NCBI GenBank assembly: GCA_934047225.1
Contig: OW204012.1
Coordinates: 13,950,001-14,014,000, forward strand
Source of the DNA: Ypsolopha sequella
Lineage: Eukaryota; Arthropoda; Insecta; Lepidoptera; Ypsolophidae
Direction of reading: 5' to 3'
DNA: 64,000 nucleotides
This document shows positions 3,974-63,027 of this stretch, piece after piece. The translations under genes and the position numbers were made by a program. The notes under the pieces were generated by a model. The model searched no databases. It was not told the origin of the DNA and saw only the letters and a list, made by a program, of their open reading frames with translations. The stretch's first letter is position 1, and each line of letters starts with the position of its first letter.

Positions 3974-4599
3974 TACCTAGACCGGCGAATTCTTCCATCA
4001 TACTTGTCCACTGTTATTTTTGCATCTGCTTGATATACTAGCTTGTACTGCACATACAGAACGCTCACGAGGGCGTTATGTGATGTCACGCCTTACATAT
4101 TTTTAGTGATATTGCAATAGCTATAAAAAAATTGGCTTTTCCATAGACAGGACGCTTAAAATAAGGTTAGTCCTGTCAAATAAGTTAACCCTACAGTTAG
4201 TCGCGCTGTATATAGAAGCGTTTGTGGTCGCGTGGATTACATATGTAGGCAAATTTATAAGTAACAAAAAAAAGTTGTAAGTATCCTTTTTATTATTTAT
4301 TATTCAGTCTTAAGTTTTTAAATTGAAGCTTTTTCTTTAAAAAAATCGTAACAAACAAAATATATACTTCCTCCGGTTCACAAAAAAAAAAATACTTACC
4401 TCTTATTTGGTTATAACAATCACACTGTCTGACTTACTTATAGTTATTGGGAATTTTGTGGCTTATTATTATAGCTACACCTTCGACCAAAATAAAATGA
4501 ATAGACGGGCCTTGTCTTTACAATTTGCTCACTCATAACGAGTCTAAGCACTTGGATATATACTATACTTCAATACCTAATTGTTAGTCTTTATTTTGC

Positions 4600-5926
4600 T
4601 TTTTGCACTTTGGAAATCAGTAGGTTAGACGATAAATATAAACTTAATAAATACAGGTCTAATTATATGCTTAATGAATTTGGCGTTCCACAAGGGAGCA
4701 TCTTGGGACCTTGTTTATTTTTATTGTACATAAATGACCTCCCGACAATAACGGATCACAAAGCAGTATTATTTGCTGATGACACAACAATATTAATTAA
4801 AGGTAACGGAAAAACAAATTTTGAAAATGACATTAACAAGACTGTAAAAAAAGTTATTCATTGGTTGAGTAAAAATAATTTAAAGGTAAACGTTAACAAG
4901 ACAAAGATGATGCAATTTCACACAAACAGAGCACCGCCTGTACAACTTAAAGTCAAGTATAATGACACGCTTATAGAAGAAGTTGACTGTACTAAATTTT
5001 TAGGTCTTTTCCTAGACAAAAATTGCAAATGGAAGAAACACATTGACGTGGTTTGCACAAAGCTTAATAGGTTTATTTTTGCACTTCGTCGACTAAGAGA
5101 AGTGGTCTCACCACAAGTCGCAATGAATGCATATTATGCGTATGTAGCATCCACCCTACAATATGGATTAATATTGTGGGGTAATTCATCAGATATGGAT
5201 AGAGCTTTTAAAATTCAAAAAAAATGTGTAAGGGCCATGTGTGGTATGCATTTCATGGACTCCTGCAAACCAAGTTTCATAAAACTTAAAATTCTTACTT
5301 TACCCTGCTTATATATAAAACAGATTACCATTTTTGTACGCCAACACCCACAATACTTTCCTAAAAAAAATGATATTACTCAAAGAACGCAAAGAAAGAA
5401 TGTAGGAGAAAGACTACATATTCCGAGATGCAAACTAACACTCGTGAAAAAGAATGTTTACCATATGGCTATCCAGGTATTTAATGCTTTGCCTGATGAA
5501 TTCAAAGAGTTACCATTAACCAAATTCGAAAACAAACTTCACGACTGGCTAATAAAAGGCAGTTTTTATTCCTTGAATGAGTTTTTCGATTATAGGGAAA
5601 TGTTGAAATGGAAATAATAAACTAAATCTATTTCAGAAATTTTGTATAGGTAGTATAAATTGATAGTTGCACATTATACTTGCTATGATATTGATATGAC
5701 ATACAATTGACACAAAACTGTACCTGTAAATATCATTCATAAATAAATTGTAGTTGACTTCATTTAATTCTATTAGTATTTTGTATAATTATAATTGTAA
5801 GTAATTTAACATTTGTACGCCATAATCGGCAGATTTTTTGAGCACTATAATACATACTGTAACATCTTTATATTCAACCAAAAATCATACAAATAAATAT
5901 TTTTGATTTGATTTGATTTGATTTGA
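4600..5926 (+). mobile_element. 5'-truncated jockey-like LINE with (GATTT)n tail, between B1 and A1
   Basis: The open frame 4610-5617 encodes the C-terminal half of a non-LTR reverse transcriptase. Motif B is GVPQGSILGP and the catalytic motif is FADD, followed by thumb and connection regions ending LHDWLIKGSFYSLNEFFDY. The N-terminal endonuclease and RT motifs 1-3 are absent, so the copy is dead and 5'-truncated, as target-primed insertions usually are. A 3' UTR of about 310 bp ends in a GATTT run at about 5900-5926. It sits in the space between the divergent B1 and A1 genes, in the A1 direction. The 5' boundary is approximate. Confidence 0.88.
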
Positions 5927-14454: not shown

Positions 14455-14636
14455 TATAATTTTAATCGTATATATATTGCTACATAAATTAAATAAACAT
14501 TTAATCTAAGTAGTTCATGTACATTATTTTATTACATATATTTTTATAAGATTAAAATTTGACTTGTGAAACGTGTATTATATATACCTACTTTGCAAAA
14601 TAAACTTTTTGAATTTTGAATTTGAATTTGAAAAAG
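14455..14636 (+). repeat. LINE 3' tail repeat ending in TTGAA units
   Basis: It matches 11255-11455 in inverse orientation and ends in a run related to GAATTT at 14615-14636. Confidence 0.55.
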
Positions 14637-14640
14637 AAAA

Positions 14641-15257
14641 TGGGGTTTTTTCGAATCTATTTACACCACTATAACGTCATCTACGTATTTCATTTTTGAG
14701 TAAATGTTTATTGAGTATTTAATTAAGATTCTCACTGAAGGAAAACGCGATTGGATGAAATTTTCTCGATAGAATTTAATTCCGAATAGACCTCTAAATT
14801 GTTTTAGTGAAATTGTATTCAAAATGTGAATATAATGTATTTGTAAAGCTTCAATGAAATTTTTTTTTGAAAAAATAGCTTATACTCGTATAAGGTCTTT
14901 CAATTTAAATGGAAAGTAATTCAGGAGGAGATTCAGTATCGTTAATACATTACATTCCCACTGAAAAGCACTTTTTTTTGCACGAACTTTTTTTCCACTT
15001 CTCAGTACAATTGGTCAGATCAGCTGACTCAGTTTGTATGGACAAGTGAAGAAAAAGTTCGCGCCAAAAAAAAGTACTTTGCAGTGGAATGTGATGTATT
15101 AAGGATACTGAATCACCTCCTAAATTACTTTCCATTTAAATTGTAAGACCTTATATATTAATAAAAAACCAACTTGTTGCTACTTTTCCACGAATCCGTC
15201 CCACTCGCACTGAGGGTTTAACAGGTAACAGAGACGCCAAAACTTTTACGTAGTGCC
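14641..15257 (-). mobile_element. TTAA-type MITE (second copy), split by a nested MITE
   Basis: This is the reverse complement of the MITE at 55382-55796. Its right end (ACGTAGTGCC) is followed by TTAA at 15258-15261, and the other end is truncated. A 265-bp palindromic element (14891-15155) is inserted inside. Downstream of that element the MITE resumes at about 15160 with AACTTGTTGCTACTTTTCC. Confidence 0.72.
14891..15155. mobile_element. Palindromic MITE nested in the TTAA MITE
   Basis: The ends TAAGGTCTTTCAATTTAAAT and its complement converge on a centre near 15025. The arms are over 100 bp with scattered mismatches. Half of another copy lies at about 21300-21372. Confidence 0.75.
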
Positions 15258-15404
15258 TTAACATAAAACAAGTTACCAGAACGTGAGTAGGATTTGAAAG
15301 GAATTTTAATTGAAATCTTCTCAAGGAGCATCGCTGAATCTACTTGGGTATAAATGTTTGAACAAAAATTAGACGTCAAGTAAAAACCGCCACTCTGTAC
15401 ATAA

Positions 15405-16109: not shown

Positions 16110-16330
16110 TGGGTGCCGAAGGCGTTCTTAAATGTAAACTGTGAAATGCAAGTTACAGTCCACACTCTTTACACCCGCGTTTCACCGACGATTATTACGT
16201 CCCGATCGCCGTACTTCGGGCACAAATACACGCTTTTTAGGGCATGCAGGTTTCCTCACGTTGTTTTCCTTCGCAGTTCAGCGAGTGGTTAGTATTAGGT
16301 AAAACAAAGAATAGGTCTTTACATATGAAA
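16110..16330 (+). repeat. Dispersed repeat (TTCGGGCACAAATAC family)
   Basis: It shares GTGAAATGCAAGT, TTATTACGTCCC and CTTCGGGCACAAATAC with 56420-56650 and, inverted, 39510-39690. The repeat does not encode protein. Confidence 0.6.
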
Positions 16331-18411: not shown

Positions 18412-21290
18412 TTTTTTAGGGTTCCATAGTACCTAAAAGGTACAAAAGGAACCTTTATGGTGAGACTCCGTTGTCCATCCATCCGTCCGTCCGTCCGTTC
18501 GTATGTCACAGCCTCGTAACTTAAGCACCGTTAAAAAAAAACCGGCCAAGTGCGAGTCAGACTCGCGTACCTAGGGTTCCGTATTGTGGATGATAAATTT
18601 AGTTAGGTCATTTTTTTTGTAAATTTCTCAACTGCTTTATTTTTCCTGTAATCTTATCTTTACGTAAACACATATTACCATGATTTTTTTTATATTTTTT
18701 GGTCCACCAGTTTTGGAGATAAGGGGGCTTTTTAAAGATTTCTCGAAACCAGTGCCAGTAAGTATAAAAAAAATATATATTTTTAAAATCAACTTTTTAT
18801 TACCTACAATTTGATATCCATATTGTATTTTTATAAAATATTTTTTTTATTTATTTTACTTATTTTTTTATATTTCTCATTAGCGCTGTTTTTTATTTTA
18901 ATCGCTATATTTTTTCTGTAATTGGCCAGTTATGATCTATAATATACATTTTTTTCATATTTTTCGGTCTACCAGTTTCGGAGATAAGGGGGGGGACATA
19001 CATATTTTTGGGGTTTTTTTTAAAGATTTCTCGAAACCAGTGTCAGTAACATATAACAGATACACGTTCCATATCAAATAACTTTGCCAAAGAATTTAAA
19101 AATAATGTAAAAAATATATGCACAAATTGTAATATTCCATTACTTGATAAAAACATATACATAAGGAACACCGAAGTATCAATGAAAATACACAAAGCGA
19201 AAAACGAGGTCATAGAAGCAATAATTAAACATTTGAACGACAAAAAAAGTCCTGGCTTCGACGGAATACGCGCGTCTGACATAAAATGTATAAATAAAAA
19301 CATAACACCAGTTATTACACACTTAATAAATAGATGCATTTACACCTCTATGTATCCAGACAAATTAAAAATTGGAACTATAAGACCTATACATAAAAAG
19401 GGAAGCTATAAGGATATAAATAATTATAGACCTATAACGATATTGTCGTGTATTGATAAAATAGTCGAAAAATATTTTGGTCATGAAATAAACAAATATC
19501 TTAGTAAAAACAACATAATAAATAATAAACAATTTGGCTTCCAGAAAAAACGAAATACGTCACAATTATTATGTAAGTTTACTAACGAAGTAAATAAGTG
19601 CTTAAATAATAAATTACATGTAATTGCAATTTTTATCGACTTCAGCAAAGCCTTTGACACTTTGAATTATAATACCTTATATTCAAAGCTCGAGCAAAAC
19701 GGTATACAGGGCCCTTTTTTTAAATTCTTTGAAAACTATCACACCAATCGCTGTACAACTGTTAAAATAGCTGGAAAACATAGCAGTATGCTACCTACTG
19801 ATGAGGGTACAGCCCAAGGATCAATATTTGCACCGTTAGAGTACCTAATCTATGTAAATGATATGCCTAACATATTTTCGGAGGGGTCTGTATATCAGTT
19901 TGCTGACGATACTTGCATGATAGTAGCTCATAATAACATAAATGATGCTCAAAACACAATGCAAAAGAACTTTGATTTAATTTGCAAGTGGTCGCATGAT
20001 GTTGGACTGGTCATTAACTACAACAAAACAAAAGTTATGCATATACATTCCCCATACATAAAAGCAAAGGCCAGCCCGTCTATCATCGCGCATAATCACT
20101 CTTGTATGCATCAAACCAAATACAAAGTGTGTAACTGTGAACCCTTAGAATTAGTAACAAAACATACCTACCTGGGACTGACTATTGATTATAAATTTAA
20201 CTGGGGATCGCACATTGAGCATATATGCAATAAACTTAGGTCTATTTTGTGTAAGTTGTCAATTCTTAAGTATAAATTACCGTACAATACACTCCGAATG
20301 TTATACATGTCACTGGCTGACTCTTTAATTAGTTATGGCCTTAGTAGTTACGGTAGAACATACAAAACATATGTTGAAAACATTTATAAAATGCAACTTC
20401 GTTTACTTAAAACAATTGTGCCTTTGTCTATTAGACATAAATACAAAGAAGACGAATTATTTAAATACTGCAAAGTCATAAATGTTTTCAACAAAGTAAA
20501 AATGGACACTATTTGTGAGGAGTACGACAAAGTTGACCAAATACAAAAAAAAACAAGACCAAATCAACTTCGTAAACTGACATACTTACCGACATACAAA
20601 CTACCCTCCTACAACAATAACTATGGTACTCGCACTTGGGAGTACATGCTACCAAAGATATTAAACGAACTACCAAGTGAAATTATAAGTCAACTGAATC
20701 GTAATCCTCATAAAATAAAAACTATTTTAAAGTGTCACTATCTCGATAAAAAAAAATTATAAAATTAAATAAGTAAAATTTTAGTTGTGAGCGCTTGCAG
20801 CGACACATAAACCTCTTTACGGTTTCCGTTAGCTGTATAAGTTTTATAATATTGTATATTTTTCTTGTCTTTACTCAATAAACGCACAAAAAAAAAAAAA
20901 AAATTTAATAAAAGTATATATTTTTTCAATCAGATTTTTAATACCTACAATTTGATATCCATACTGTGTTTTTATAAAATATTTTTTTTATTTATTTTAC
21001 TTCTTTTTTTATATTTCTCATTAATGCTGATTTTTTTTTTAATCGCTATGGTTTTCCTGTAATTGGCCAGTTATGATCTATAATAGACATTTTTTTCATA
21101 TTTTTCGGTCTACCAGTTTCGGAGATAAAGGGGGGACATACATATTTTTGGGGTTTTTTAAAGATTTCTCGAAACCAGTGTCAGTAAATATATTAAAAGT
21201 ATATATTTTTAGAATCAACTTTTTAATACCTCCAATTTGATACCCATGTTGTGTTTTTAGGCAAATTTTTTTTATTTTTCTCACTTTTGT
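18412..21290 (+). repeat. Dispersed repeat with three internal tandem units, split by a LINE
   Basis: It starts with an inverted-style head (AGGGTTCCATAGTACC) and then CCGGCCAAGTGCGAGTCAG at about 18541. Inside, a unit of about 255 bp, marked by AGATTTCTCGAAACCAGTG and AATTGGCCAGTTATGATC, occurs three times (near 18740, 19025 and 21160). The LINE at 19048-20902 splits it. The same repeat in the B3 intron has two units and in the B4 intron one. Confidence 0.75.
19048..20902 (+). mobile_element. 5'-truncated LINE with poly(A), between B2 and A2
   Basis: The open frame continues upstream of the first ATG at 19182 to about 19051 and ends at 20762, so at least 526 codons are open. RT motifs in order: SPGFDGI, YRPITILS, GFQKKRNTS, FIDFSKAFDT, an unusual motif B (GTAQGSIFAPLEYLIYVNDM instead of the usual GVPQGS form) and FADDT. 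The endonuclease domain is missing. A run of 16 A follows at about 20887. The insertion point inside the host repeat is shown by comparing GTGTCAGTAA-CATATAAC with the intact unit at about 21180. It is probably recent because the frame is still open. Confidence 0.87.
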
Positions 21291-32459: not shown

Positions 32460-32840
32460 AGAGCTGATGCCGGGCTCGACTGTGGAGGTACCACCATCTT
32501 ACTTGGAGACCCCCTCGAAGTAATTCGGGGGAGAGTAACAGGACAGCTCACAGGCAAAAACCAGGAGGCCCACCATGCCTGGGACCGATGGATGGCGGCA
32601 TATCCATCCCTAATAGCCGGACCTTATATGGAACAGACTGGTGACGGGCCGTGGCGTCACTGGTGCGAGGGTTCCGGCACCGCGCTCACCAACCCGCCTG
32701 CCCAGCGTGTGTGAGTATGGGCACTTCTTCCAGGATGACCGCTGGGAGTGGCAAAGTCCTGGAAAGTCTTATGTCCAGCAGTGGATGAACTAGGCTGATG
32801 GATGGAATGTTTTGTATTCCATCCCGGGGGGGACCTATTA
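32460..32840 (+). repeat. Unclassified 380-bp repeat (copy 3)
   Basis: Begins AGCTGATGCCGGGCTCGAC and ends TGTATTCCATCCCGGGGG. It is repeated at about 53920-54290. GC content is well above the flanks, and I find no ORF with a domain. Confidence 0.6.
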
Positions 32841-32842
32841 TA

Positions 32843-34338
32843 GCCAGTGTGTTAAAATAGATCAACACATGAGTGACGACCATTATGTGTCTTACGGAGT
32901 CCCTCAAGGAAGTGTTCTCGGCCCAACCTTATTCCTCATTTACATAAACGACCTCTGCTCTCTTTTGATACCTAATTGTGAAATCGTCACCTATGCAGAT
33001 GACACAGCGCTTGTTATAAATGGGAGTGACTGGGTTGAGACACAGAAACTAGCAGAGAATGCTCTAAGTGTTGTGACGAACTGGCTCGCTGATAACTTAC
33101 TGACATTAAACACCTCCAAAACGAATTTTGTCACATTCTCGCATCAAGTTTCATCACAACCTTCTGGTGCCTACAAGATTGTCACTCATTCATGCGGGTT
33201 TAATGAGAAGGACTGTGACTGTGCTGCCTTGTCTCGGGCATCGGCTGTAAAATATCTAGGTGTCACCATTGGTAGCACATTAAATTGGCACCAGCACATT
33301 GAAGCTCTGACCTCACGAGTACGAAAGCTTATCTTTGTTTTCAGGAAATTGAGATCTGCTGCCAACCCCCAAATACTTAAAGCAGTGTATCTAGCTCTGG
33401 CCCAATCCATCCTTAGCTACTGTATTCCAGTTTGGGGTGCTGCTGATAAAACAGCATTCATACGTTTGGAGCGGGCACAGAGAGCTGTTCTAAAGGTCAT
33501 GACATATAAACCTCTCCGATATCCCACTGCAATCCTATATGAAGAATTAAAGGTCCTGACCGTTAGGCAGCTCTATGTTCTGCACACCGTCCTCATCAAA
33601 CATTCCTCCTTAACGTACGATCGCTCACACATGACCAACAAACGAAGAATTGACCGCGTCTGCAATATACCCACCCATAAAACTAAGCTTGCCCAAAATA
33701 ATTTTGAAATAGCAAGTTCACGACTTTACAATAAAATTAGTCAGACAAATCCCATCTTTCATCTGAATAAATCTCATTGCAAAAAGGTTATTTCCCAATG
33801 GTTACTTGGGTTAAATTATGACGAAACAGAAAAATTGCTTGCTATTCAATCTTAATCAACTCGTACTCAGCTATAACACAACTTTGTTCTCCTCTTCTTC
33901 AGTACTTCTTTAATTCATTTCTCATACGCATATACACCCTCACTCACTCACACATACCCTCATACCCTCACACACACCCTCTCGCATGCACACACCTATC
34001 ACAACAAATACTAACACTGCATGTTATTCAATATAATTAACCATGTTTTTGTATTTTGATAAATTAATGTAACAATGCACCTTATTAATTTAATTCATTT
34101 GATAATATTATCTATTCTTGTATAAAATTAAATGTTGAGCACTTTATCTTGTAAAGTCTACATTGTTGTCCATAAGCTAAGGTCAACCATAGGGAGGGCG
34201 CTGACACCTAAATCTCAAGATACTTTCTTACCTTAGGTGTCAGAGCAACTACTTATCTTGTGTAATAATTAAGCTGATCTCTGATATTTTTGTTAATTTT
34301 ATTTGTTATAAATCTGTGTCAATAAAAAAAAAGAAATT
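32843..34338 (+). mobile_element. 5'-truncated jockey-like LINE, insertion specific to copy 3
   Basis: The coding part runs from about 32843 to 33855: GVPQGSVLGPTLFLIYINDL, then YADDTALV, then LGVTIGSTLNWHQHIEALTS, ending LGLNYDETEKLLAIQS. A 3' UTR of about 480 bp ends in a poly(A) at 34324-34336. In copy 4 the same place reads CCTATTATATACCTGAG uninterrupted (about 54293), which gives an empty site and a short TTATA duplication. The ORF is open but lacks the endonuclease and early RT motifs. Confidence 0.88.
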
Positions 34339-35921: not shown

Positions 35922-36882
35922 ATGGCCAAGTTCACTTTGCTCCTTGTCTGCGCCCAAGCTTTGCTTATTCAGGTAAATAAAATCCATTAAATTCAGGAAG
36001 AGGAAGCCATACAATGAACGCTTTTAATTATAATTATGTTGGAGATTTTTAATGGTCTCTTGCAAATCTGAAATCTTATCAAAATTTAAATATTTGTGAT
36101 GGCACACAATTATTTTATAAAGTATTTGAGTAACAATAGCTTTCTTATATGATGCGTTTCGGTAGAAAAAATTAAAAAAGATATCGGAGAAACAACTTTT
36201 GTACCAGAACTTTTTTTTTATTTGCGTTACTTATTGCTTAGAGCAAAGGTTTTAATTACTTTTGTAAATACAAAGGTAAATCCAAATGCTCTTCCTTCCA
36301 AGTGGTCTGTCCACTGATCAATATTTAGCTCAACACTACCTAAAAGTATACGACAAACTGTATTGATACAACATTGCTAACTAATATATCTTTAGTTACC
36401 AGAAAAACATAAAAAGCCCTCTTTCGGATTGTATAATTCAAATAATTTTGCCAAATAAACTTACAAACATGTTTTTATTTTTTTTATAGAATGTGTTCAG
36501 CGCATATCTGCAAGCAGCTGCTCCAGCCGTCAACCTGGGAAACATTGGCTACTCTGGATCTGGCTGTGGTTGTGGGGCCTCTATCTTGAACAACGCTGGC
36601 TACAACAACGTTGGTTTCAACAATATTGGTTACAACAACGCTGCTCTTAACTCTGGATACGGCAGCTACGCTGGCTACGGTAGCTCTTCTGGTTACGGCG
36701 GTTCAGGCACTGGACAAATCGACGCCGACGGTTTACTGGATGTTGGTGGCTACAGCAGTGTGTACGGCAACCTGCCAGTGACTGGTCTGGTGCAATTCAA
36801 CGGTAACCTCCCAGCTTGTGGTACCGTTACTGTCATTGGTAACACTCCCAGCATCTGTGACTGCGGTTGCAACTACTACTGA
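35922..36882 (+). CDS. Chorion class A protein, gene A3
   Basis: The CDS is exon 1 at 35922-35972 (MAKFTLLLVCAQALLIQ) joined to exon 2 at 36490-36882, phase 0, giving 147 aa. Donor CAG/GTAAATA; acceptor TATAG/AATGTG. The class A centre (QIDADGLLDVGGYS ... NLPACGTVTVIGNTP) and tail CDCGCNYY are present. The cysteine just after the signal peptide (SAC in the other A genes) is tyrosine here (SAY), which may remove one disulfide partner. AATAAA at 36922-36927. Its 517-bp intron is the least disturbed of the four and serves as the empty site for the two A4 intron insertions. Confidence 0.94.
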
Positions 36883-39505: not shown

Positions 39506-39509
39506 TTTC

Positions 39510-39690
39510 GGGCACAACTACACGCTTTTTAGGGCATGCAGGTTTCCTTAGAGCGATAGGGCTGATCACGTTGAGACGTAATAATCGTCAGAGAAACGCG
39601 GGTGTACTTATAGGTACACGTATGGGTGGACTTATGACTTGCATCTCACAGTTCACACTCGGACCACCTCGTGACACCCCTTCGGTAAAA
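39510..39690 (-). repeat. Dispersed repeat (TTCGGGCACAAATAC family), inverted copy
   Basis: CGGGCACAACTACACGC, GGGCATGCAGGTTTCC and ACGTAATAATCGTC match 16110-16330. Confidence 0.6.
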
Positions 39691-49644: not shown

Positions 49645-52600
49645 TAGTTCATGTATTGATGATATAGTCTTTATTTAATCAAACAGTAAAATTAACTTAA
49701 ATTACATTAAAATAATTAAAAAAAGAGGACTAAAATAAATTAATCAAAACTAAACATAATTTAGATCTAAACTAAGTAAAAATAAATAAATGACCTAAAA
49801 CAAATTAAATTAAATAAAAAACTTTTTCCAAATCGCTGCCAGATGGGAGGGCACCCAAGACACTGGCAGCGTTACCTCGTTGGATGGCTAAGCTTATCCG
49901 TTGTCCGAGGTACGCGCCAGCCCTCGGGTCACCCGAGGCATCGACCAGGCGCGACGATATTTCGTGGAACAGTCGACGCGCCTCTGGCCCCCACGGCCCC
50001 AGTGTTTCGACGGCAAACGGCGCAAATATGTAACCCGCTCCCAGGGCTGCATAGTTGCGCCGCTTAGCTAATTCAGCCGTTGCTGCTGCCGCACCCGCCT
50101 TTTTTGCGGTCGCCGGAAGGTGGGACGGAGCAAGCGTATCTACGCACGTAGCGTCCCACACCAACGACCGCCCGTTTCTCCACGAAACGAGTGTCATGCC
50201 GTCGGGCCTCTTGCCATCGTCACGTGAGAGACCTTGGGGCTCTAATATTGCCGGAACGTTAACGGTGACAAGCGCCCTTCGGATGACATCGTTAAGATTT
50301 GCATGGCGGGATAGGCGGCCGGCGCTTCGACGACATGAAAGGCCGTGGTGGCCTAGTAGGTCAACGCTTGCTCCACATTGGCAGCGATGTGGTTCGTTTA
50401 TCTTAACCCCGAGTCGCAGACAGACAGCCATTGTAAAAGCAGTCTTATCGAGAAGTGCCCCGATTGCTGCTGAAGGCATTGCTTGCAGCCAGTACCCAGC
50501 CTCGTGTTCCTTGACAGCAAGGAGACGAGGTTGCTCCACAGGGCTCTCGGCAGTTTCTAGAAGATTTTGTTGGACTTTCCTGCAGAGTGGCTCGTCCCAT
50601 TGTTTTTGGGAGTGCAAGACAATGGGCAGGGGTTCGCCTGGACAAGCTAGTGTCCATGCATTTCTGGCCTCCGTCAGGTCCAATGCCTCAACGTCACCAA
50701 GTGACGGGCTAATTATATTACCGAAGAGAGCATTGGTACCATTGACGGAGGACAGGAAGGCAGGGAGCGCTACACTTGAAATTTTTCTGATTCCCAGGCC
50801 ACCGAAGCGGACGGGGAGCGTGGCTTGATCCCAATTCCGTTCTGTAAACGAGCAATTTAATATGGAACCAAGAGTTTCTGCAATTGTATTATCTAATAGT
50901 TTAAGGAGGGTGTTGAATTTCCACATAACTGAGCAGCGGAGAACATAAGTTAAGTTTGGGACAAACAAGCAGAAACGGATGATAAACAGAGCCATGTGGG
51001 GGTTAATTTTTGATAGTCGTTCGGAGGATGCGAGGAATTTAGATATTTGCTCGTTTACATAGGCAGGGATTGAGTCTTCGTGTATGGGGGCACCAAGAAG
51101 GCGAAGCGACTGCTTATCGAGGATTTTAATGTCGGGAGCCAGATTATTAAATTTTAAAATCATGTCTTCTTTTTCTACCGTAGGTATAGAATCGGATAGA
51201 AACAGTTCACATTTTGAGAAATTGAGCTGAAGGCCCAGTTGTTTAAATTGTTCTGTTATATATTTTAGGTCGTTAAGAACTGAAATAGCATCGCCTCCTA
51301 TAGTGCCGTCATCTAAATACCAAATATTGAATTTAGAATTTAGAGCTGTTATTACCGGATGAATCGCCAGACTGAAGATTGCTGGTCCAAGCGGGTCTCC
51401 CTGTTGACAGCCTGTTTCAGATTGTAACATTTCATTTTTGTAAATTAATTTTGATGGTTTACCATAGCACTGGTATATATAATTGTAAATTGCAGGTGAG
51501 TTCTCTTTAACCTGTGACAAGAGGGCGTCCCTGCCCACTGAATTGAAAGCATTACAAACATCCACCTTCAGCAACACTTGACCTATGTCGTGTGCTAAAA
51601 AGGTGCGAGCAGCGTGAACAGCCGCCTCGCAGCCTCCCTTGCACCCGAATCCCAGTTGTATAGGTTGAAATTTTGCAGAAAGGTCTGGTAAAATATGACT
51701 GCAGCATATTTTTGATACCATGCGGCGGATTGTATTGCCGACAGCAATTGGTCTTATGCCACCGTCTTTCTTCTTTAAGGCGATAAGATTTGCACCATAA
51801 AGTACGTCGGTTATTTCTTCGCACACTTTCCCCGACAGCATAAGGTTCGCCAGACGCGTAATGTCATGCAGTAGCGTCCGGCTAGTTTCTCCGATGGACT
51901 TACATAAAAGATCTTTTAAATGTTGTGGTGTAAGACCGTCGAGGCCACCCGCCGATCCATTTCTGAATGACATTATTGCGGCCAACGTCTCCTCTGCTGT
52001 CGTTTCAGGTGTGCGGTCCGATGGCTTTGGTGGTTCAGGTGGCTGGCTCGCTATTGCTGAAGGTGGGTGCTTGGACGCTAGTGCCGCAAGTGTATCATGG
52101 TTGTTGGGGGCCACGCAGTCGTCGGAGAAGAGAAGTTGGGCGGCTCCCTTAATATCCCCATCATTTACTTTACCTTCAATTTGTTTAATTATGTTGAAAG
52201 TAGTTGGTTCGTTGTATCGCCTGGTGTTTGTAATATCATGATCCACGTCTCTGGGCTTTTTACAGTTGTCTTTTATTTTTTGTGTAAGGGAGCCTGGAGC
52301 GTCTCTTCCTCTGCACACGTGCAGCGTCCGGTACACAAACGTGAGTAGGTTTTCCCATTTTTGAACATCATTAAATAAAATTACATTATTTATTGATTGA
52401 GACAGAGAGGCCGCCACTGAGATACGTGCACCCCGTGGGATTCTTTTTATAACTTGGATGTTATTTTTCAGGTATCCAAGCCTTTCCGAAAGCGGTGGTT
52501 TACAAGCGGGAGTTTTAATGGTGACGATTTCTGCATTTTGGCTTAATGAACGATGTAATTTTCCTTTATGAATGTTGAGGCCTCTCTGCCCCTTAAAAGA

Positions 52601-53808
52601 TTTAAAACATTCCGGACACTGCAAACGGTCCTCCGACGACTGCTGGCTTTGGCTACTGGCTGGTACACAGGGGCCATCTGTCTGCGACATGCGAAGCCGA
52701 GTAATTGTAAAAATAAATAACTTAAAATGTAAATACCTAAAACCAAAAAAAAAAACAAACAATTAAAACTAAAACAAATAACTTAAAATGTAAATACCTA
52801 AAAACAAAAACAAGCTATTAAAACTATCTTAAAAAATAAATTATATCTAGAACTTTTTTTTTTCTTTTTTTAGAACAAAACTAAGATTTGGGCACTGCAC
52901 TTGATCTTGGATTGGACTGTTCCACGTTTTGTTACCGCTAGGAACGGGCTCCTGGATCTTACTTATATGGAACAACAGTTTTATGCGGAACATAGATCCT
53001 GGTCACCGAGGTCTTGCTTGAATGTTCATAATCATAAAAGCTGTTAGATGTCACTCCTCATGGTCGAAGGTGTTGGTATCCAGACCGAAACGCTGAAGGT
53101 TACTTGAGAGGCTTGAATTTTCGAAAAATCATAGTAGTTTTAATTTATTTTTTTCTTACGGTGCTGAAATATTTATTTTGTGAATAATTTGTTTTTCTTT
53201 CGCAGTCCTAAGACTAAAAAAATATTAAATAATAAAAATGCTGAAAAAATATATGTCTGCTTGACGTTGACGTTTCATAGAGTTTTCTATGAAAATTTAA
53301 ATATGTTACGAGATTACTACTTCTGGTTCGACTTAATTTTGGATTTACGCTACAGAATGTATAAACAAAAGAAACGTTGAGCGCCACTTAATTTATTAAG
53401 TAAAAATTAAGAAAACCTTTATGACACAAAAAAAAAGAAAATTCTCCTTCAGAATTTAACAAAAAAAGAAACAACTCTACTTGTATAAAATAAAGATAGA
53501 TGTTAAGTTTAAAAAAAATTGAATAATCTAAATAATATTTACATCAAAATTCAATCCTGAATTTTCTCAAAATATATTTTGTAATGTCCTTTATATAGGA
53601 CAATTCTTAAATTCGGCTAAATATTATTATTTACATTATCTTGCACCATGAGTACTTATCTTACTCGTCTTGAACCTCCTGTACATCCTTTATATAGGAC
53701 AAAACGGTCCAGATGTTTTCGAACAACTTTCTTCCTTCGCTCTCGATCTTTCAATTAAAATTAATGAATTAAAGGAATAAAAATAAAATAAAATAAAATA
53801 AAAATAAA
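49645..53808 (-). mobile_element. RLE-type non-LTR retrotransposon, possibly complete, specific to copy 4
   Basis: A minus-strand LINE of about 4.2 kb. The ORF (49805-52690) is open from end to end. About 155 bp of 3' UTR without poly(A) and about 1.1 kb of 5' sequence flank it. Copy 3 reads GTCCGAAATAAAAGATTTTT without interruption at 32338-32357, so the insertion postdates the duplication, with an AAATAAA-type duplication at the ends. A 61-bp tandem repeat of AAATAACTTAAAATGTAAAT lies just upstream of the ORF (52716 and 52776). Fragments of relatives lie at 13930 and 17245. Confidence 0.85.
49805..52690 (-). CDS. Reverse transcriptase with C2H2 finger and restriction-like endonuclease
   Basis: A 961-codon ORF from the ATG at 52690; the frame also stays open upstream to 52762, but the segment before this ATG looks like leader. 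Order: a C2H2 zinc finger (CPECFKSFKG ... HKGKLH, residues about 25-46); an RT domain with GGLDGLTPQHL, LLKVDVCNAFNSV, GCQQGDPLGPAIFSLAIHP (about 430) and the catalytic YLDDG (about 459, where most LINEs have FADD or YADD); a CCHC motif (CQCG ... HHGLSC, about 770); and an endonuclease of the PD-D/ExK type with RPDGMT and LVWDATCVDT (about 840-855). This layout is that of the R2/R4/HERO/NeSL group of site-type LINEs. I cannot fix the clade. No stop or frameshift is visible, so it may still be functional. Confidence 0.9.
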   Translation of the reverse strand: MSQTDGPCVPASSQSQQSSEDRLQCPECFKSFKGQRGLNIHKGKLHRSLSQNAEIVTIKTPACKPPLSERLGYLKNNIQVIKRIPRGARISVAASLSQSINNVILFNDVQKWENLLTFVYRTLHVCRGRDAPGSLTQKIKDNCKKPRDVDHDITNTRRYNEPTTFNIIKQIEGKVNDGDIKGAAQLLFSDDCVAPNNHDTLAALASKHPPSAIASQPPEPPKPSDRTPETTAEETLAAIMSFRNGSAGGLDGLTPQHLKDLLCKSIGETSRTLLHDITRLANLMLSGKVCEEITDVLYGANLIALKKKDGGIRPIAVGNTIRRMVSKICCSHILPDLSAKFQPIQLGFGCKGGCEAAVHAARTFLAHDIGQVLLKVDVCNAFNSVGRDALLSQVKENSPAIYNYIYQCYGKPSKLIYKNEMLQSETGCQQGDPLGPAIFSLAIHPVITALNSKFNIWYLDDGTIGGDAISVLNDLKYITEQFKQLGLQLNFSKCELFLSDSIPTVEKEDMILKFNNLAPDIKILDKQSLRLLGAPIHEDSIPAYVNEQISKFLASSERLSKINPHMALFIIRFCLFVPNLTYVLRCSVMWKFNTLLKLLDNTIAETLGSILNCSFTERNWDQATLPVRFGGLGIRKISSVALPAFLSSVNGTNALFGNIISPSLGDVEALDLTEARNAWTLACPGEPLPIVLHSQKQWDEPLCRKVQQNLLETAESPVEQPRLLAVKEHEAGYWLQAMPSAAIGALLDKTAFTMAVCLRLGVKINEPHRCQCGASVDLLGHHGLSCRRSAGRLSRHANLNDVIRRALVTVNVPAILEPQGLSRDDGKRPDGMTLVSWRNGRSLVWDATCVDTLAPSHLPATAKKAGAAAATAELAKRRNYAALGAGYIFAPFAVETLGPWGPEARRLFHEISSRLVDASGDPRAGAYLGQRISLAIQRGNAASVLGALPSGSDLEKVFYLI

Positions 53809-55312: not shown

Positions 55313-58300
55313 ATGGCCAAGTTCACTTTCCTCCTAGTCTGCGCCCAAGCTTTGCTTATTCAGGTAAATAAAACCCATTAAGGCGGTACGTAAAAGTTTT
55401 AGCGTCCCTGTTACTCCATATGCGAAAAAACCCTCAGTGCGAGTGGGACGGATTCGTGGAAAAGTAGCAAAAAGTCGGTTTTTTATTAATATAAAATGTA
55501 CTAAGCTATTTTGTCAAAAAGATTTTCAAGGAGACTTTGCAAATACATAATATCCACATTTTGAATGCAATTTCACAATGAAATTAGTTAAGATTTCAGA
55601 ATTACAGGAAAAAATAAAACAATTAAGTGGTATCGGAATTAAATTCTTTCGAGAAAATTTCATCCAATCGCGTTTTCCTTCAGTGAGAATCTTATTCAAA
55701 TACTCAATAAATATTTACCCAAAAATTAAATACGTAGATGACGTTATAGTGGAGTAAATGGATTCGAAAAAACCCCATTTTTTTTTTGGTATCGCCTTAA
55801 ATTAAGGAAGAGGAAGCCATACAATGATACGCCAGTAACCTTCAACTTCAGACCTTGCGTCAAATATGTTAGGTCTGATTTTTTGCTGACTTGCTTACGA
55901 TATTGACCCAATCAATAATCCAAGTTTTTGACCTCGAGCACCGAACGCAACCTTGTCATAAATCGAAAAAACAGCAAAATGTTCGCCTTTATTTCAGTTT
56001 TTGGCCATTTTAAGCCTATAGGACTAGTTTTTTAAATACTTACGTAGTACGTTTTTTAAATAGACTAAATTTTCTACAAAATGAAACTAAAACTGTCCCT
56101 GTAGACTTAATAATTTCTGAGATAAAGCCTTTCAAAATTTATATTTTTTTTCGAAGTTCGCAATTCTTAGCAATATATTGTCGTTCTGAATGTATTTTGC
56201 CCCTGTTTCGGAACCGCCCCTTCTCCTATCATATTCTAGTGGATCCTGAAGAGGTTTGAGGGGCCCGCAGATTCCTCCCCACTCTCCCCTCATCGTTATT
56301 CACATTTTTCATTTCTACCCCTGTTATATTATCGAAGCCCTTTACGTTTTATGATGGGATTTTAAAACAGAAAATAAGAAGTGCGAACGATGATATATTC
56401 ATCGTCACGACATGAATCCCCGAAGGGGTGTCAGAGATGTTCCAGGTGTGAACTGTGAAATGCAAGTCACAATCCACACTCGGTATAACCGCGTTTCATC
56501 GACGTTTATTACGTCCCAACGTGATAAGTGGTGAGCCCTATCACCGTTCTTCGGGCACAAATACTTGCTTTTTAGGACATGCATGTTTCCGTATGATGTT
56601 CACCTTCACCATTTAGCAAGTGGTACATATTATATAAAGCGAACGATGATGTGTAATGTTAAGCTACGAAATAAAAAATAAAAAAAAAGGCGAAATAAAA
56701 AAGGTGATACGAAAATTTATGGGTACATCAATAAAGTAAATTTTTTAATTAGTTATTCAATTGAGTGATTCACGATAATCAATAGATTAAGTTAATTTAG
56801 CCCTCTTGGAAGGTCCTGGTTGTGGTTCGTCCGTATCTAAATCGTCGTATTGGGATGGCATATCCCTTTCAGGGGATGGCGATGCATCGTCGACGTCTTG
56901 TGTCCACAAAACATCCTCCGTGTCGACATCGGGCAGATCGTCGTTTTCTGGGGAATTGAAGTATATTTCTCCTGCAACATACGGTACATTGTCACAGGAA
57001 GCCCCGCTGCAGTGCCTGCAGACTGATGAGCATTTCATCCCTGCCTTCCTGCAGCTGCACGCGTTCCCACAACCCTTTTTGCAGCCGCAAGAAATCATCC
57101 GCAAGAGGTGTTGTGGGGCAGCATCTCTGACCATCGTTTTTGGGCTGAGGCCTTGTGACGTGGATATCCACCCCCAGGAGAGAGGGTTCAGTGTGACTCC
57201 CAACCACGCCTGTACCTGTAAGAAAATAGTACATGAGTAGTTGAATAGAAAATGATGAATATGAAGTTATATTGTGTATTCATGCATTGGTTATAATATA
57301 ATATAGTAAAATAATTTGTACCTGATGGTATGTCCGCAAGGAGTGAAATCGAGCAGCGTCTCGTGTAGGAGGTAACCTGGCCAGATTGAAGCTGGTTTTC
57401 GTCGCAGATCTCGCGAATAGTTGGAACCGCAGCTCGTCAAGGTTGTGGGTGTTGGGATTGCCTCCATATAGAGCGATTACGACTCGCTCTCCTGCTGCTG
57501 CAATCTCGTCTGGTGTAGAGTTGGTGTCGAGAAAAATTGCAGCTTCCTTTTCAACGTCCGGATTTTTTTCGACCATTGAGATCATTTGCTTTTTCCCTAA
57601 GCCAAAAAAGCAGGATGTCGAGTCACAACCACTAAAGGCATGAATGAAAAGGAAAAGCTCTGGTTTCAATGAGGATTTTGAAGAGGCAATGCTGGAATAC
57701 ATGACATCTGATGCTTTGCCTCTTCCACATTTGTTGAAAAAAATTTCACGGTTTGAGATCGCAGTGAGGATGATCAGCAAGTCAATGTCTTCACCAACGA
57801 CTACCACTATATCATAGGTAGAGGCAACAGTTACAGCTGTAGTGATGATGAGCCTATCAGCATCTTCCTCTGCTTGGAGTACTTGAATGTTGTGATTTTC
57901 CATTTTAGATGTCAGCAGGTTGATGAAACTAATTTTGTTTTTGTCAATTGACAAGAATTTCTCTTGAATAACCTGCGCTATGGTTTTCTCATCAAAGATT
58001 ATTTCTGGCGATGAGTGTGATTTGGCTCTTCGAAGACGCTCAGAGCTCTTTGTGCTTTTCTGTGCAGCATCTGATGGGTAGCCATCGAAGACTACTGCCA
58101 CGTTTGAGCCATAGTGAGCAGTAATGTACTGCGTATATCTGTCTGCTATCGCACCAAATGATGCGCTTCGTGGCCACACAACTTTGTGAAGTAGATGACC
58201 TCCATCTACCACGGCAAACTTCGTTGACCCTTGCTTCTCATCTAAGTTTACAGGTTGAAATACTGCATACAAGGTGGATTTTGTGCCCTTTCTCATTCCC

Positions 58301-61300
58301 TCTTCAGTGAATATTGACATTGGGATTGGTGACAGCTCGTATGTGAAGAACTCTCGCAATTCTTCATCTGATTGTTTTAGGACACACAACCTATGAAACA
58401 ATGTTAGAGGATTAACAGTTACCTGTTTATTGCCAACAACAATAGTTCATACAGCTGAAGAAAGGGACACCACATTGTTTTTACGTTTGAATTTCACTTC
58501 CTTGAAGTTCTGGCCGACTGCTGTTAGCATCGATTCTCTTCCAATCTCTAGAGCCATGTGACTATTGACAGAAATTTCTCCAACTTGGCCACTGCTGATG
58601 GACATAATGAAATCTGCTTTAGGGAATGGAGGGTGCTGTGAAAACCAGTTACAGAGTTTTTCAGTATCTGATTCATCTCTGGTGACACGAGATGGTCGCA
58701 TGTCAACATGCTGTTCAGTTGTTGCAGTAGTAATCTCGCAGTATGTTTCCACTTCATCGCAGATTTTCTCTAGATACACCATGCCCAATGTCCATCGGGA
58801 GAGTACACTGTCAGTTATACCACGTCCTCGGGTGAGCCCTCCATAGCTTTTCATAGATCTCATCAGTACTTGCTCAATGGTCATATCTGACCATATGCCC
58901 GACCAAAATTTGTTAGTTCGTCGGATGGTGAAGTATCCCTTTCTTGTGAAATTATCGTATTCAAGAGGGTCCATTTTCCCTTCCACTTCTAGCATATCTT
59001 GCAAATATAACTGTGCACACTTTGCATAAAAGAAATGCCCCGATGCGTGGAAGAATGGCAGCATTTTCTGGATGGTGGCCAAATGCAAATTCCAATCGAC
59101 TGTCCGTTCTGCTTGAATGAATTGCTTCACCAGTGTCACCATTCGAAAATAAAGAACCCACAGCTTTGCGGTTGGTCCATTGCTTTCAAGCTTGGAAAGG
59201 GCATCTGTGAATTTCGTCGTAAGTGCTTGAAATTACTCATTTTCGTGTGCTGTCAGAATTGCAGATCTGTCAGAGATTGAAAGAATGTCTTCAATAAAGC
59301 TGTTGTCCTCTTCAGTCAAGTGAATTGTTCTCATAGCTTCACTTGCCAAGGAAAGATAGACCAAACTGTGGGCTCTCACTGCTCTAGAATAAGCATGTCC
59401 AGATAACATCTTCTCAATGCTGTTTTCAGCATAAATTGTCGAGAGCAGTTCCCTTAGACCACTTCCACTCATAATCATACCTATTGATCCCATGTAAGAC
59501 ATTAGTAGGTGAAAACCCCCTAGCCTCACCACAACGTTACTCAAATCAGTGCCCTGACAGTTTGCGACTATCTCTTTGGCTTTAATGTATAGGGGTTGGT
59601 CAAAAGTAACAACGCAGGTTTTTGTCCATGGGTTCGGCATCTCTCATTTGCAAGCCGAAGGGCTGTAAGAACTGTGTCATAATTGGATGGGAGGTGGTTA
59701 ATGAATGGCAGACATATAATTTTGGAGGTTTCAAAATGTTTCTCTGCTGTTGCTTCCTCCATGAACCCATTCCATCCCGGGATGTTTACCTTTTTTTGAA
59801 CCTTCCCATATAACCATAACATATCCGAAGGAAGTGGCAGAATTTCTTCAGGTAGCGAATGAACATTGTCCATGTTAACAATTTTAATTCCTGACAAACC
59901 TTGATTGGACGACACTTGTTGGAAGGTTTCTAGCTGAATAGGAGGATTTTGCTGTACAAGTTCTGAAGCAGTGCACTTCGTAAGACGAGCTATTTGTTTC
60001 TCAGGACATAAGGAATCATGAGGAGTCACAATCAGGATACCTCCCATTGCGTGGAAAGTGCCCAATCCATCTAGTGTGCTCACATTGAAGTCGGCGTTAT
60101 CAAAAACAAATTGCACAAACGGTATTGAAGGCTCCTTCAACATGAATTGGTCTGGTTTCATGATGGCCGAGGTTTCCAAAAGCATAGTCTCCTTGACTAG
60201 CTGAGAATCCAAGCGTTGACAATAACTCAATCAGATGTTTTGACCCGAACTTGTGATACAAGTATACACCAATTCCATGAAGTAATGAAAAGATGAACGA
60301 GCGAGGCCTCACTGCTGATAGTATTGAATGTGCAAGAGCAACGCACTTCTTTCTGTAGGGCTCCAAGCAGCCTCGTTTGTCTTTTAAAATTACTGTTTCC
60401 AGTAATAGTTTTAAAGAATCAGGGATAACAGAATCTACATTTTGGAAGAAGTCGTCAGATGGTGTGAATTGTTTTGTGTCGTACACTTGCGACCGTATGT
60501 CCTCTCGTATGACTTCAGCAGCTGCCTTCACCACGCGTAATCTTTCTGCTTGAGGATCTGAGCTTCTACTTTCATACCATGTACTAGTGAGAATTTTATG
60601 GCCTGTGTTTTTAAAACAAACAATCGTTTGTTTGGAGGATGTCTCAGCGATCAAAATGCCCTCTCCATACTTTCTAAACAAGCGATTTTTGACTGTTCTC
60701 CGTTGAGGTCGTTCTCCTCTTATCTGTTTCATGAGTTCATCTAGAGAGAACTGACATTCCTCAGCGTTTTCTTCCAGAAATGAATAAATAACTTCCATGG
60801 CCTCATCAACTATGGTATGCTGACGATTTTCCCTGGACATTCCTGTTGGTGGTACCTGGTAGAACTTTATTTGGCAAACCCGATGATATCTCGCATCAAG
60901 GGCTATCAAATCTGTGTTCTCAGATATACGATCTTTTATTTTAAGAGCCCATTCATCGCCACGTTTCTCAGCTGCTTTCAAGATTGTGACATTAAAAGAC
61001 AACTTTTCCACAGTAATAACATTGTTTCTTTTTTCTGGCTTCTTCTTCCTTTCAGCCACAAGGAACTCTTCAGTTATTTTGTCTCCACAGAGAAAACAGT
61101 GTTCTCCGAAATTGAACTGCTCAGACACTGATCTCGTGGCCTTTGATGGCATAATATTTGATTTTCCACGGCAAACAGCTGCTTTGATCAACTTTGGATT
61201 GTTGTATTTCACCTGACAAGCACTGTGCACATATATCTCATTCACGTCTTTCAATAAACGTTCATTTTCTCGGTTATTTAAAGAAACACTCGACGCAATT

Positions 61301-63027
61301 AGGGTTTTTACACCTCTTTCCTTCACTAACCGCAGTTCACCTTCACTTGAAGTCTCCTTACATATAAAACACAAATCTGCGCTGGGACTGGGATCCGACA
61401 TTCTGTTTTTTTTTTAATTTAATCTATATTTTAAATTTATTGTGGCAAATTTCACCTTCCTTTTACCACGATACTCTTTGATATGAGAAAAATAACAAAA
61501 AAATGTGACAAATCATTCCAAAAACACAAAAAACAAAAAAGACAAAAAATATATGAAAAAGGTTTTTTTTCTTTATTAACAGAAACATAAAAACTTAAAT
61601 AACATGAAATAAAACTAAAATCAAACCTGTCATGAAAAAGGTTGAATACCTGTAGCCTCAGAATAAGGAATCCTGTAGCGAAAGCTACAACTTGCAACAC
61701 TAGCACACTCAGTTGGAGATAATTGGAATTACATCGCTCGGAGGTCTAACTCGTTTAGTTTCAAGAACCTCTGATAGAGCCCGCTAGTGTTGCTCGAGTG
61801 ACGTCTGAGATATTGATAAAATGGGCAAGTTCGAAACAATCAATACATTCTAAAAGGCATTATCTCGGAAACCATTAAGCCTACAGAAAAAGTTTTAATC
61901 TCATATTGTAGAAAATTTAGTCTACTTTAAACGCGTAATGCGTAAGTATTTGAAAAATTTGTCTTTTAAGCTTAAAATTGACAAAAACTGATATAAAGGC
62001 GAAAATTTCGCAGTTTTTTCGATTTATGACAAGGTTGCGTTCGGTGCTCGAGGTCAAAAACTTGGATTATTGATTGGGCCAACATCATAAACAAGTCAGC
62101 AAAAAATCAGAACTAACATATTTGACGCAAGGTACCTACCCTTTCAGACGACAAGGTTACTGGAGTATGAACGCTTTTAATCATAATTATGTTGGAGATT
62201 TCGTTGGTCTTTTACTAATAACTCCAACATGGATATAAAAACTAATATGACAAATGGAGTGTATTGATGATAAGTACTTTCAGATTTAATGGTCTCTTGC
62301 AAGTCTGAAATCTTATCAAAATTTAGAATTATCTGATGGCACACAATTATTTTACTTTTTTTTTTATTTGCGTTACTTATTGCTTAGAGCAAATGTTTTT
62401 AATTACTTTTGTAAATACAAAGGTAAATCCAAATGCTCTTCCTTCCAAGTGGTCTGTCCACTGATCAATATTGAGCCCAACACTACCTAAGTATACGACA
62501 AACTGTATTGATACAACATTGCTAACTAATATATCTTTAGTTACCAGAAAAACATAAAAAGCCCTCTTTCGGATAGTGTTATTCAAATAATTTTGCCAAA
62601 TAAACTTACAAACATGTTTTTATTTTTTTTATAGAATGTGTTCAGCGCATGTCTGCAAACAGCTGCTCCAGCCGTCAACCTGGGAAACATTGGCTACTCT
62701 GGATCTGGCTGTGGTTGTGGGGCCTCTATCTTGAACAACGCTGGCTACAACAACGTTGGTTTCAACAATATTGGTTACAACAACGCTGCTCTTAACTCTG
62801 GATACGGCAGCTACGCTGGCTACGGTAGCTCTTCTGGTTACGGCGGTTCAGGCACTGGACAAATCGACGCCGACGGTTTACTGGATGTTGGTGGCTACAG
62901 CAGTGTGTACGGCAACCTGCCAGTGACTGGTCTGGTGCAGTTCAACGGTAACCTCCCAGCTTGTGGTACCGTTACTGTCATTGGTAACACTCCCAGCATC
63001 TGTGACTGCGGCTGCAACTACTACTGA
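55313..63027 (+). CDS. Chorion class A protein, gene A4
   Basis: The CDS is exon 1 at 55313-55363 (MAKFTFLLVCAQALLIQ) joined to exon 2 at 62635-63027, phase 0, giving 147 aa. Donor CAG/GTAAATA; acceptor TATAG/AATGTG. The mature protein differs from A3 at only two positions of exon 2 (SACLQTA here, SAYLQAA in A3). The class A centre and CDCGCNYY tail are intact. AATAAA at 63067-63072. The intron is 7,271 bp, fourteen times that of A3, because of a 415-bp MITE and a 6.34-kb DNA transposon. Whether it is still spliced efficiently cannot be told from sequence. Confidence 0.92.
55382..55796. mobile_element. 415-bp MITE with TTAA target duplication
   Basis: Ends GGCGGTAC and GTATCGCC are inverted (one mismatch). 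TTAA flanks both sides (55378-55381 and 55797-55800), while A3 has a single TTAA at 35987-35990. TTAA duplication is typical of piggyBac-type transposases. The element itself does not code for protein. Confidence 0.85.
56420..56650 (+). repeat. Dispersed repeat nested in the DNA transposon
   Basis: GTGAAATGCAAGTCACAATC, TTATTACGTCCCAACG and TTCGGGCACAAATACTTGC match 16110-16330. Confidence 0.6.
56787..61401 (-). pseudogene. Transposon-encoded zinc-finger / FEN-like nuclease / CXC protein, broken
   Basis: From the ATG at 61401: two CxxC...HxxC modules (LCFICKE...VHSACQ, HCFLCGD...YHRVCQ, about residues 11-175); a conserved region (FDNADFNVSTLDGLGTFHAM, GSGLRELLSTIYAENS, SMKSYGGLTRGRGITDS); an FEN/XPG-like nuclease region in 58401-57322 (VVFDGYPS, QAEEDADRLII, VVGEDIDLLIIL, HAFSGCDSTSCFFGLGKK); and a C-terminal tesmin/TSO1-type CXC domain (ISCGCKKGCGNACSCRKAG). 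An intron of 106 bp is well supported at 57321-57216 (CAG/GTACAA, TTACAG/GTACAG), joining TYHQ to VQAWLG. Breaks: compensating frameshifts near 60200 and 59620, and in-frame stops at 59235-59233 (TAA) and 58449-58447 (TGA). Total about 1,500 codons. It resembles a family of large uncharacterised animal proteins. Confidence 0.82.

Follow-up and report, generated by a model that had tools for sequence, protein, structure and literature searches.

The chorion locus of Ypsolopha sequella analysed here, a stretch of 64,000 nucleotides (the window; Pfam Chorion_1 matches at 998-1558), raises the question of what has interrupted one of its introns at positions 55828-62167, and with what machinery the intruder moves. 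Our answer, which we hold with considerable confidence, is that this element, with its gene on the minus strand, is a DNA transposon, likely of recent spread and likely of the AcademX type, and that its single protein is predicted to unite a DDE (Asp-Asp-Glu) transposase with an XPG/FEN-type nuclease. The ends and the target site can be read directly:

55825..55827, no strand: left target-site duplication TGA, 3 bp (flank reading and empty-site comparison)
55828..56165, plus strand: left terminal inverted repeat, starting TACGCCAGTAACC (self-alignment; 27 left-arm places in the same genome)
61820..62167, minus strand: right terminal inverted repeat, terminating GGTTACTGGAGTA (self-alignment)
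62168..62170, no strand: right target-site duplication TGA, 3 bp (flank reading)
35982..36046, plus strand: unoccupied target site in a paralogous chorion intron, with one TGA (intron comparison)

From this comparison, it is evident that the original prediction had delimited the element correctly. The inverted repeats of about 340 bp share 285 identities over 355 alignment columns, with an alignment score of 217.5, whereas 200 letter shuffles averaged -33 and reached at most -13, and the paralogous intron runs uninterrupted through the insertion point, with a single TGA near 36015-36017. The same intron also carries, just left of the element, a 423-bp inverted-repeat insertion with TTAAGGCGGTAC ends and TTAA flanks (55378-55800), which is not in the paralogous intron and has related pieces at 14631-15261.

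The rest of the genome was surveyed with two queries, the nuclease stretch and the left repeat. The 1,167-bp nuclease query gave 42 matches (40 of 45 candidates scored), and 13 copies, the window's included, span it completely at 99-100% identity among the scored matches. We have fetched all 12 other copies covering the query and eight partial ones, and later six more; five further long near-identical partial matches and the remaining fragments lie outside this set. Both ends were located in 18 of 21 copies (the window's and the first 20 fetched), the flank count excluding L017, L019 and L027, for which both ends were not found. Identical 3-bp flanks were present in 15 of the 18, compared with 16 of 306 cross-copy pairings of left and right flanks; the duplications are TGA, TAC (twice), TTT, CTA (three times), ATA, TAA (three times), TTG (twice), TAG and AAA. 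This count has a mild bias, since the script favoured the pair with equal flanks where several end pairs were possible. Flanks are unequal in L016, L020 and L025, and the end bases of L016 and L020 deviate as well. The left-repeat query returned 40 matches (40 of 85 candidates scored), 27 of them left-arm places, the other 13 being right arms of these elements. All 27 left-arm places adjoin a gene match when coordinates are compared by eye; at one of them (C15) the distance from the repeat is 3 kb to a small gene fragment and 11 kb to the main piece. No inverted repeats without the gene were seen among the 40 scored candidates, and the outcomes that would have refuted the original prediction did not arise. 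Other copies thus share the ends and 3-bp duplications, as the original prediction had supposed, and together with the predicted EXO1/FEN1-like fold described below they back its claim of a delimited DNA transposon. The ends, duplications, empty site and dispersed copies establish that the element is mobile.

Eleven full-length sequences (the window copy, L009-L016, L018 and L020) differ pairwise at 1-50 of about 6,250 bases. Since the copies are nearly identical, the spread is likely to be recent, with signs of very recent activity. The gene is open in seven of the 12 other query-covering copies, with one long frame, a 106-bp GT-AG intron and a CXC exon; the predicted protein has 1,503 amino acids in six of them, whereas that of L018 has an altered tail and 1,501. 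It is broken or interrupted in L009, L011, L017, L019 and L020. The window copy is broken too:

57322..61401, minus strand: exon 1 from the ATG; broken in the window copy, which has two frameshifts here and two TGA stops in frame (frames; open in seven other copies)
57216..57321, minus strand: predicted 106-bp intron, GT...AG (splice-site reading)
56787..57215, minus strand: exon 2, the C-terminal part including the CXC module (frames and splice sites)
58447..58449, minus strand: in-frame stop of the window copy, absent from the seven open ones (frame comparison)
59233..59235, minus strand: in-frame stop of the window copy, absent from the seven open ones (frame comparison)

The window copy and L009 share the same set of broken frames and differ at one of 6,339 bases compared, and they lie on different contigs between different 3-bp duplications. 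For these reasons, a broken copy of this type was most likely mobilised in trans, by an open one. Within the 3' non-coding region of the element, a part at 56420-56625 matches 16133-16289 and 39507-39685 in the window, and is perhaps a nested repeat.

The encoded protein can be divided as follows:

61216..61371, minus strand: first C2HC module (C11, C14, His, C62; residue reading, conservation in relatives)
60874..61098, minus strand: second C2HC module (C102, C105, H173, C176; residue reading, conservation in relatives)
60594..60828, minus strand: predicted winged-helix fold (limits by eye from the model of relative P0173, residues 182-259)
58800..60200, minus strand: predicted RNase-H-like DDE transposase core, approximate limits (models, conservation, relation to Pfam DUF6589)
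60099-60101, 59599-59601 and 58873-58875, minus strand: approximate places of the core acids D, D and E (conservation and model)
57322..58300, minus strand: XPG/FEN-type nuclease domain, approximate limits, with seven conserved acidic positions (profile, fold prediction, conservation)
56994..57089, minus strand: nine-cysteine CXC module, each cysteine present in 65-66 of 69 relatives (alignment)

The paired C2HC modules, the GEDIDLLIIL and HAFSGCD motifs and the CXC cysteines noticed earlier are all present, and the FEN/XPG-like region is upheld by its predicted fold and conserved acids; what had been overlooked were the frame lesions and a predicted DDE core between the C2HC modules and the nuclease. 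In this core, a D-D-E set at RNase-H-like positions is invariant in 69 of 69 relatives, and D432, D599 and E841 (read-through numbering) are predicted to form the catalytic triad. The predicted strand order is RNase-H-like, and the model has a Hermes-like structural match of middling score and about 10% identity; Foldseek with this model gave no match at E ≤ 0.001. Pfam DUF6589 (PF20231) reached 32.7 bits in relative P0181, above the curated cut-off of 27, and matched 13 of 32 relatives at E ≤ 0.1, with 12.3 bits, below the cut-off, for the protein of an intact copy. Since DUF6589 overlaps the predicted core, the match suggests that this Pfam family of uncharacterised function is a DDE transposase core. 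No Pfam match above cut-off was obtained with the pieces of the broken window-copy protein, and NCBIfam gave no meaningful match for three proteins.

The nuclease is predicted to adopt an EXO1/FEN1 fold (9-19% identity in structural matches) with conserved metal-binding acids. In a profile search against solved structures, query A1 returned EXO1 only (E 0.035-0.88) and query A2 returned no match up to E 10. The probable CXC assignment comes from the nine-cysteine pattern, a mark of the tesmin/TSO1 CXC domain, and from the database names of relatives, and is without a Pfam match; the profile matches of the CXC exon were a defensin and an antibody only, which we have taken as chance. Relatives of the protein also occur in the Bemisia genome, and none were confirmed in the viral contigs or the prokaryote genome contigs searched.

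Taken together, these parts allow a working scheme. Binding of the inverted repeats would fall to the C2HC modules and the winged helix, and the DDE core would cut and join the ends with a 3-bp stagger; the XPG/FEN-type nuclease may trim or cut the second strand, a flap or a branched intermediate, and the CXC module may bind DNA.

How does this compare with known systems? The AcademX lineage of the Academ superfamily, whose encoded nuclease is of the XPG type, is reportedly treated in work by Kapitonov and Jurka (2010) and Kojima (2020). In the passages of one report that were consulted, AcademX has 3-4 bp duplications and a nuclease, AcademH has 9-10 bp duplications and a helicase, and duplication length is suggested to be linked to whether the accessory enzyme is a nuclease or a helicase (PMC10045372). 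Our element fits the AcademX description in its 3-bp duplication and encoded nuclease; a DDD/E transposase, the AcademX kind, is predicted in our case from conservation and from models of middling score. Its CXC module and nuclease-only derivatives go unmentioned for AcademX in those passages. From AcademH, reportedly a member of the same superfamily, it differs in its 3-bp duplications and in that no helicase was found among the Pfam matches. It is therefore most likely a new AcademX member as judged by this comparison of descriptions, and Academ membership is a strong lead drawn from described features, not from sequences.

The other likenesses are structural. With Hermes, a hAT transposase, the element shares the predicted RNase-H-like core, in which a long helical insertion precedes the final acidic residue, but the sequence identity is about 10% and the duplications are 3 bp long; hAT elements make 8-bp duplications and have no XPG nuclease. 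With EXO1, FEN1 and XPG it shares the predicted nuclease fold and metal-site acids, but here the nuclease sits within a transposon protein and is only 9-19% identical in structural matches. Our literature search found no paper on a CXC domain, flap endonuclease and transposase in one transposon, and none on DUF6589 by name, the one hit to its accession being an article on optics; for tesmin, transposase and transposable element no paper was about such an element, as judged by titles and the beginnings of abstracts. Neither 'XPG nuclease' nor 'FEN-like nuclease' occurred among the matches listed (15 of 182), and term look-up in the consulted parts of PMC12730594 and PMC10027918 gave no Academ, XPG, CXC or tesmin.

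A separate superfamily, which would share the 3-bp duplication and nuclease with AcademX and whose DUF6589-type core would have arisen or been captured independently, is rather unlikely in our judgement. It gains from the fact that the Academ likeness is one of descriptions, not of Academ sequences, and that Pfam names the core only as DUF6589, for which the name search found no paper; however, the same pair of features, a nuclease and a 3-4-bp duplication, is given for AcademX in the consulted passages (PMC10045372), and Bemisia, which holds relatives of the element protein, has annotated Academ copies (PMC9143410).

We regard it as very improbable that the nuclease itself cleaves the ends, with the middle region structural only and no DDE transposase. 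The conservation of the seven-acid nuclease site, and the shorter derivatives that keep the nuclease and have lost the middle region, would agree with such an arrangement, but not the D-D-E set invariant at RNase-H-like positions in all relatives, nor the strand order and Hermes-like match predicted for the core. It is further weakened since strand transfer is not known for enzymes of the FEN family. Were the copies segmental duplications, or members of a host gene family, and not transposed elements, their high identity could be so explained, but in copies with both ends found the matches stop at the repeats, and the empty site and the 3-bp duplications that differ from copy to copy already contradict this account, to which we give almost no credence.

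If the element is a transposon of the AcademX type, the role of a flap-type nuclease in such a transposon is open to direct experiment in this genome, where seven near-identical copies have an open frame, the empty site has been mapped, broken copies seem to have moved in trans, and nuclease-only derivatives exist. We know of no test of why Academ-type transposons carry this nuclease.

The derivatives deserve separate description. Eight fetched copies (L021-L028) have no transposase part and keep the repeats, the nuclease and the CXC exon. Their 999-bp nuclease exon is open in six of eight, and a 351-amino-acid stop-to-stop nuclease frame is open in five of the seven with frames listed (L027 being outside the listing); in two of these five (L021, L023) the CXC exon is broken, leaving both parts open only in L022, L024 and L025. 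The deletion joins element positions about 2513 and 5956 in the three derivative junctions examined. An old degraded copy, L034, is joined at a different point, 17 bp further along, and in another, L031, the junction position could not be read. A second family (L029, L030, L033) consists of nuclease and CXC only, with 52-57% amino-acid identity in the main pieces and repeats of about 300-350 bp terminating TAATCCATGG. In L029 the two frames are open and the flanks form a CTA duplication. In L030 and L033 both frames are broken; the flanks of L030 differ from each other, and no right end was located for L033. A longer second-family relative with broken frames, L032, matches L029 at 99.3% identity along 557 bp, from a point shortly before the nuclease domain onwards. 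The three resolved junctions (of the L021-L028 type, L034 and the second family) thus all fall near residues 1018-1028, just before that domain. Araneus proteins starting near residue 1018 were considered as nuclease-only elements and dropped, since longer Araneus relatives have Met there and the starts are those of gene prediction.

Rough ratios of non-synonymous to synonymous substitution rates (dN/dS) for the nuclease exon were 0.56-1.63 among L021-L027 (0.0 for L024/L025; L028 was left out for its length) and 0.30-0.89 between derivatives and open copies. The comparison among L021-L027 looks near neutral, with no sign of constraint on the exon, so that the nuclease may have been retained by chance or because it is needed in cis. 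A bolder reading is that the nuclease-CXC module is a selfish unit that can part from the transposase, the latter having been lost by separate deletions in two families and the short elements, some with nuclease and CXC frames still open, spreading on transposase made elsewhere. We consider this unlikely, the more so because CXC exons and second-family frames are broken in several derivatives. If true, the XPG nuclease would have to work in cis or to pay its carrier, and transposase and flap nuclease would divide their labour in a way that, to our knowledge, is undescribed.

Elsewhere in the window, three long reverse-transcriptase-like open frames lie between chorion genes at 4505-5617, 19050-20762 and 32794-33855 (all plus strand), and Pfam RVT_1, when tested, matched 19050-20762 only. 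A 985-amino-acid open frame at 49805-52762 (minus strand) contains a reverse transcriptase domain, together with an N-terminal motif that by eye resembles a zinc finger, and appears to be an intact LINE-type (long interspersed nuclear) element.
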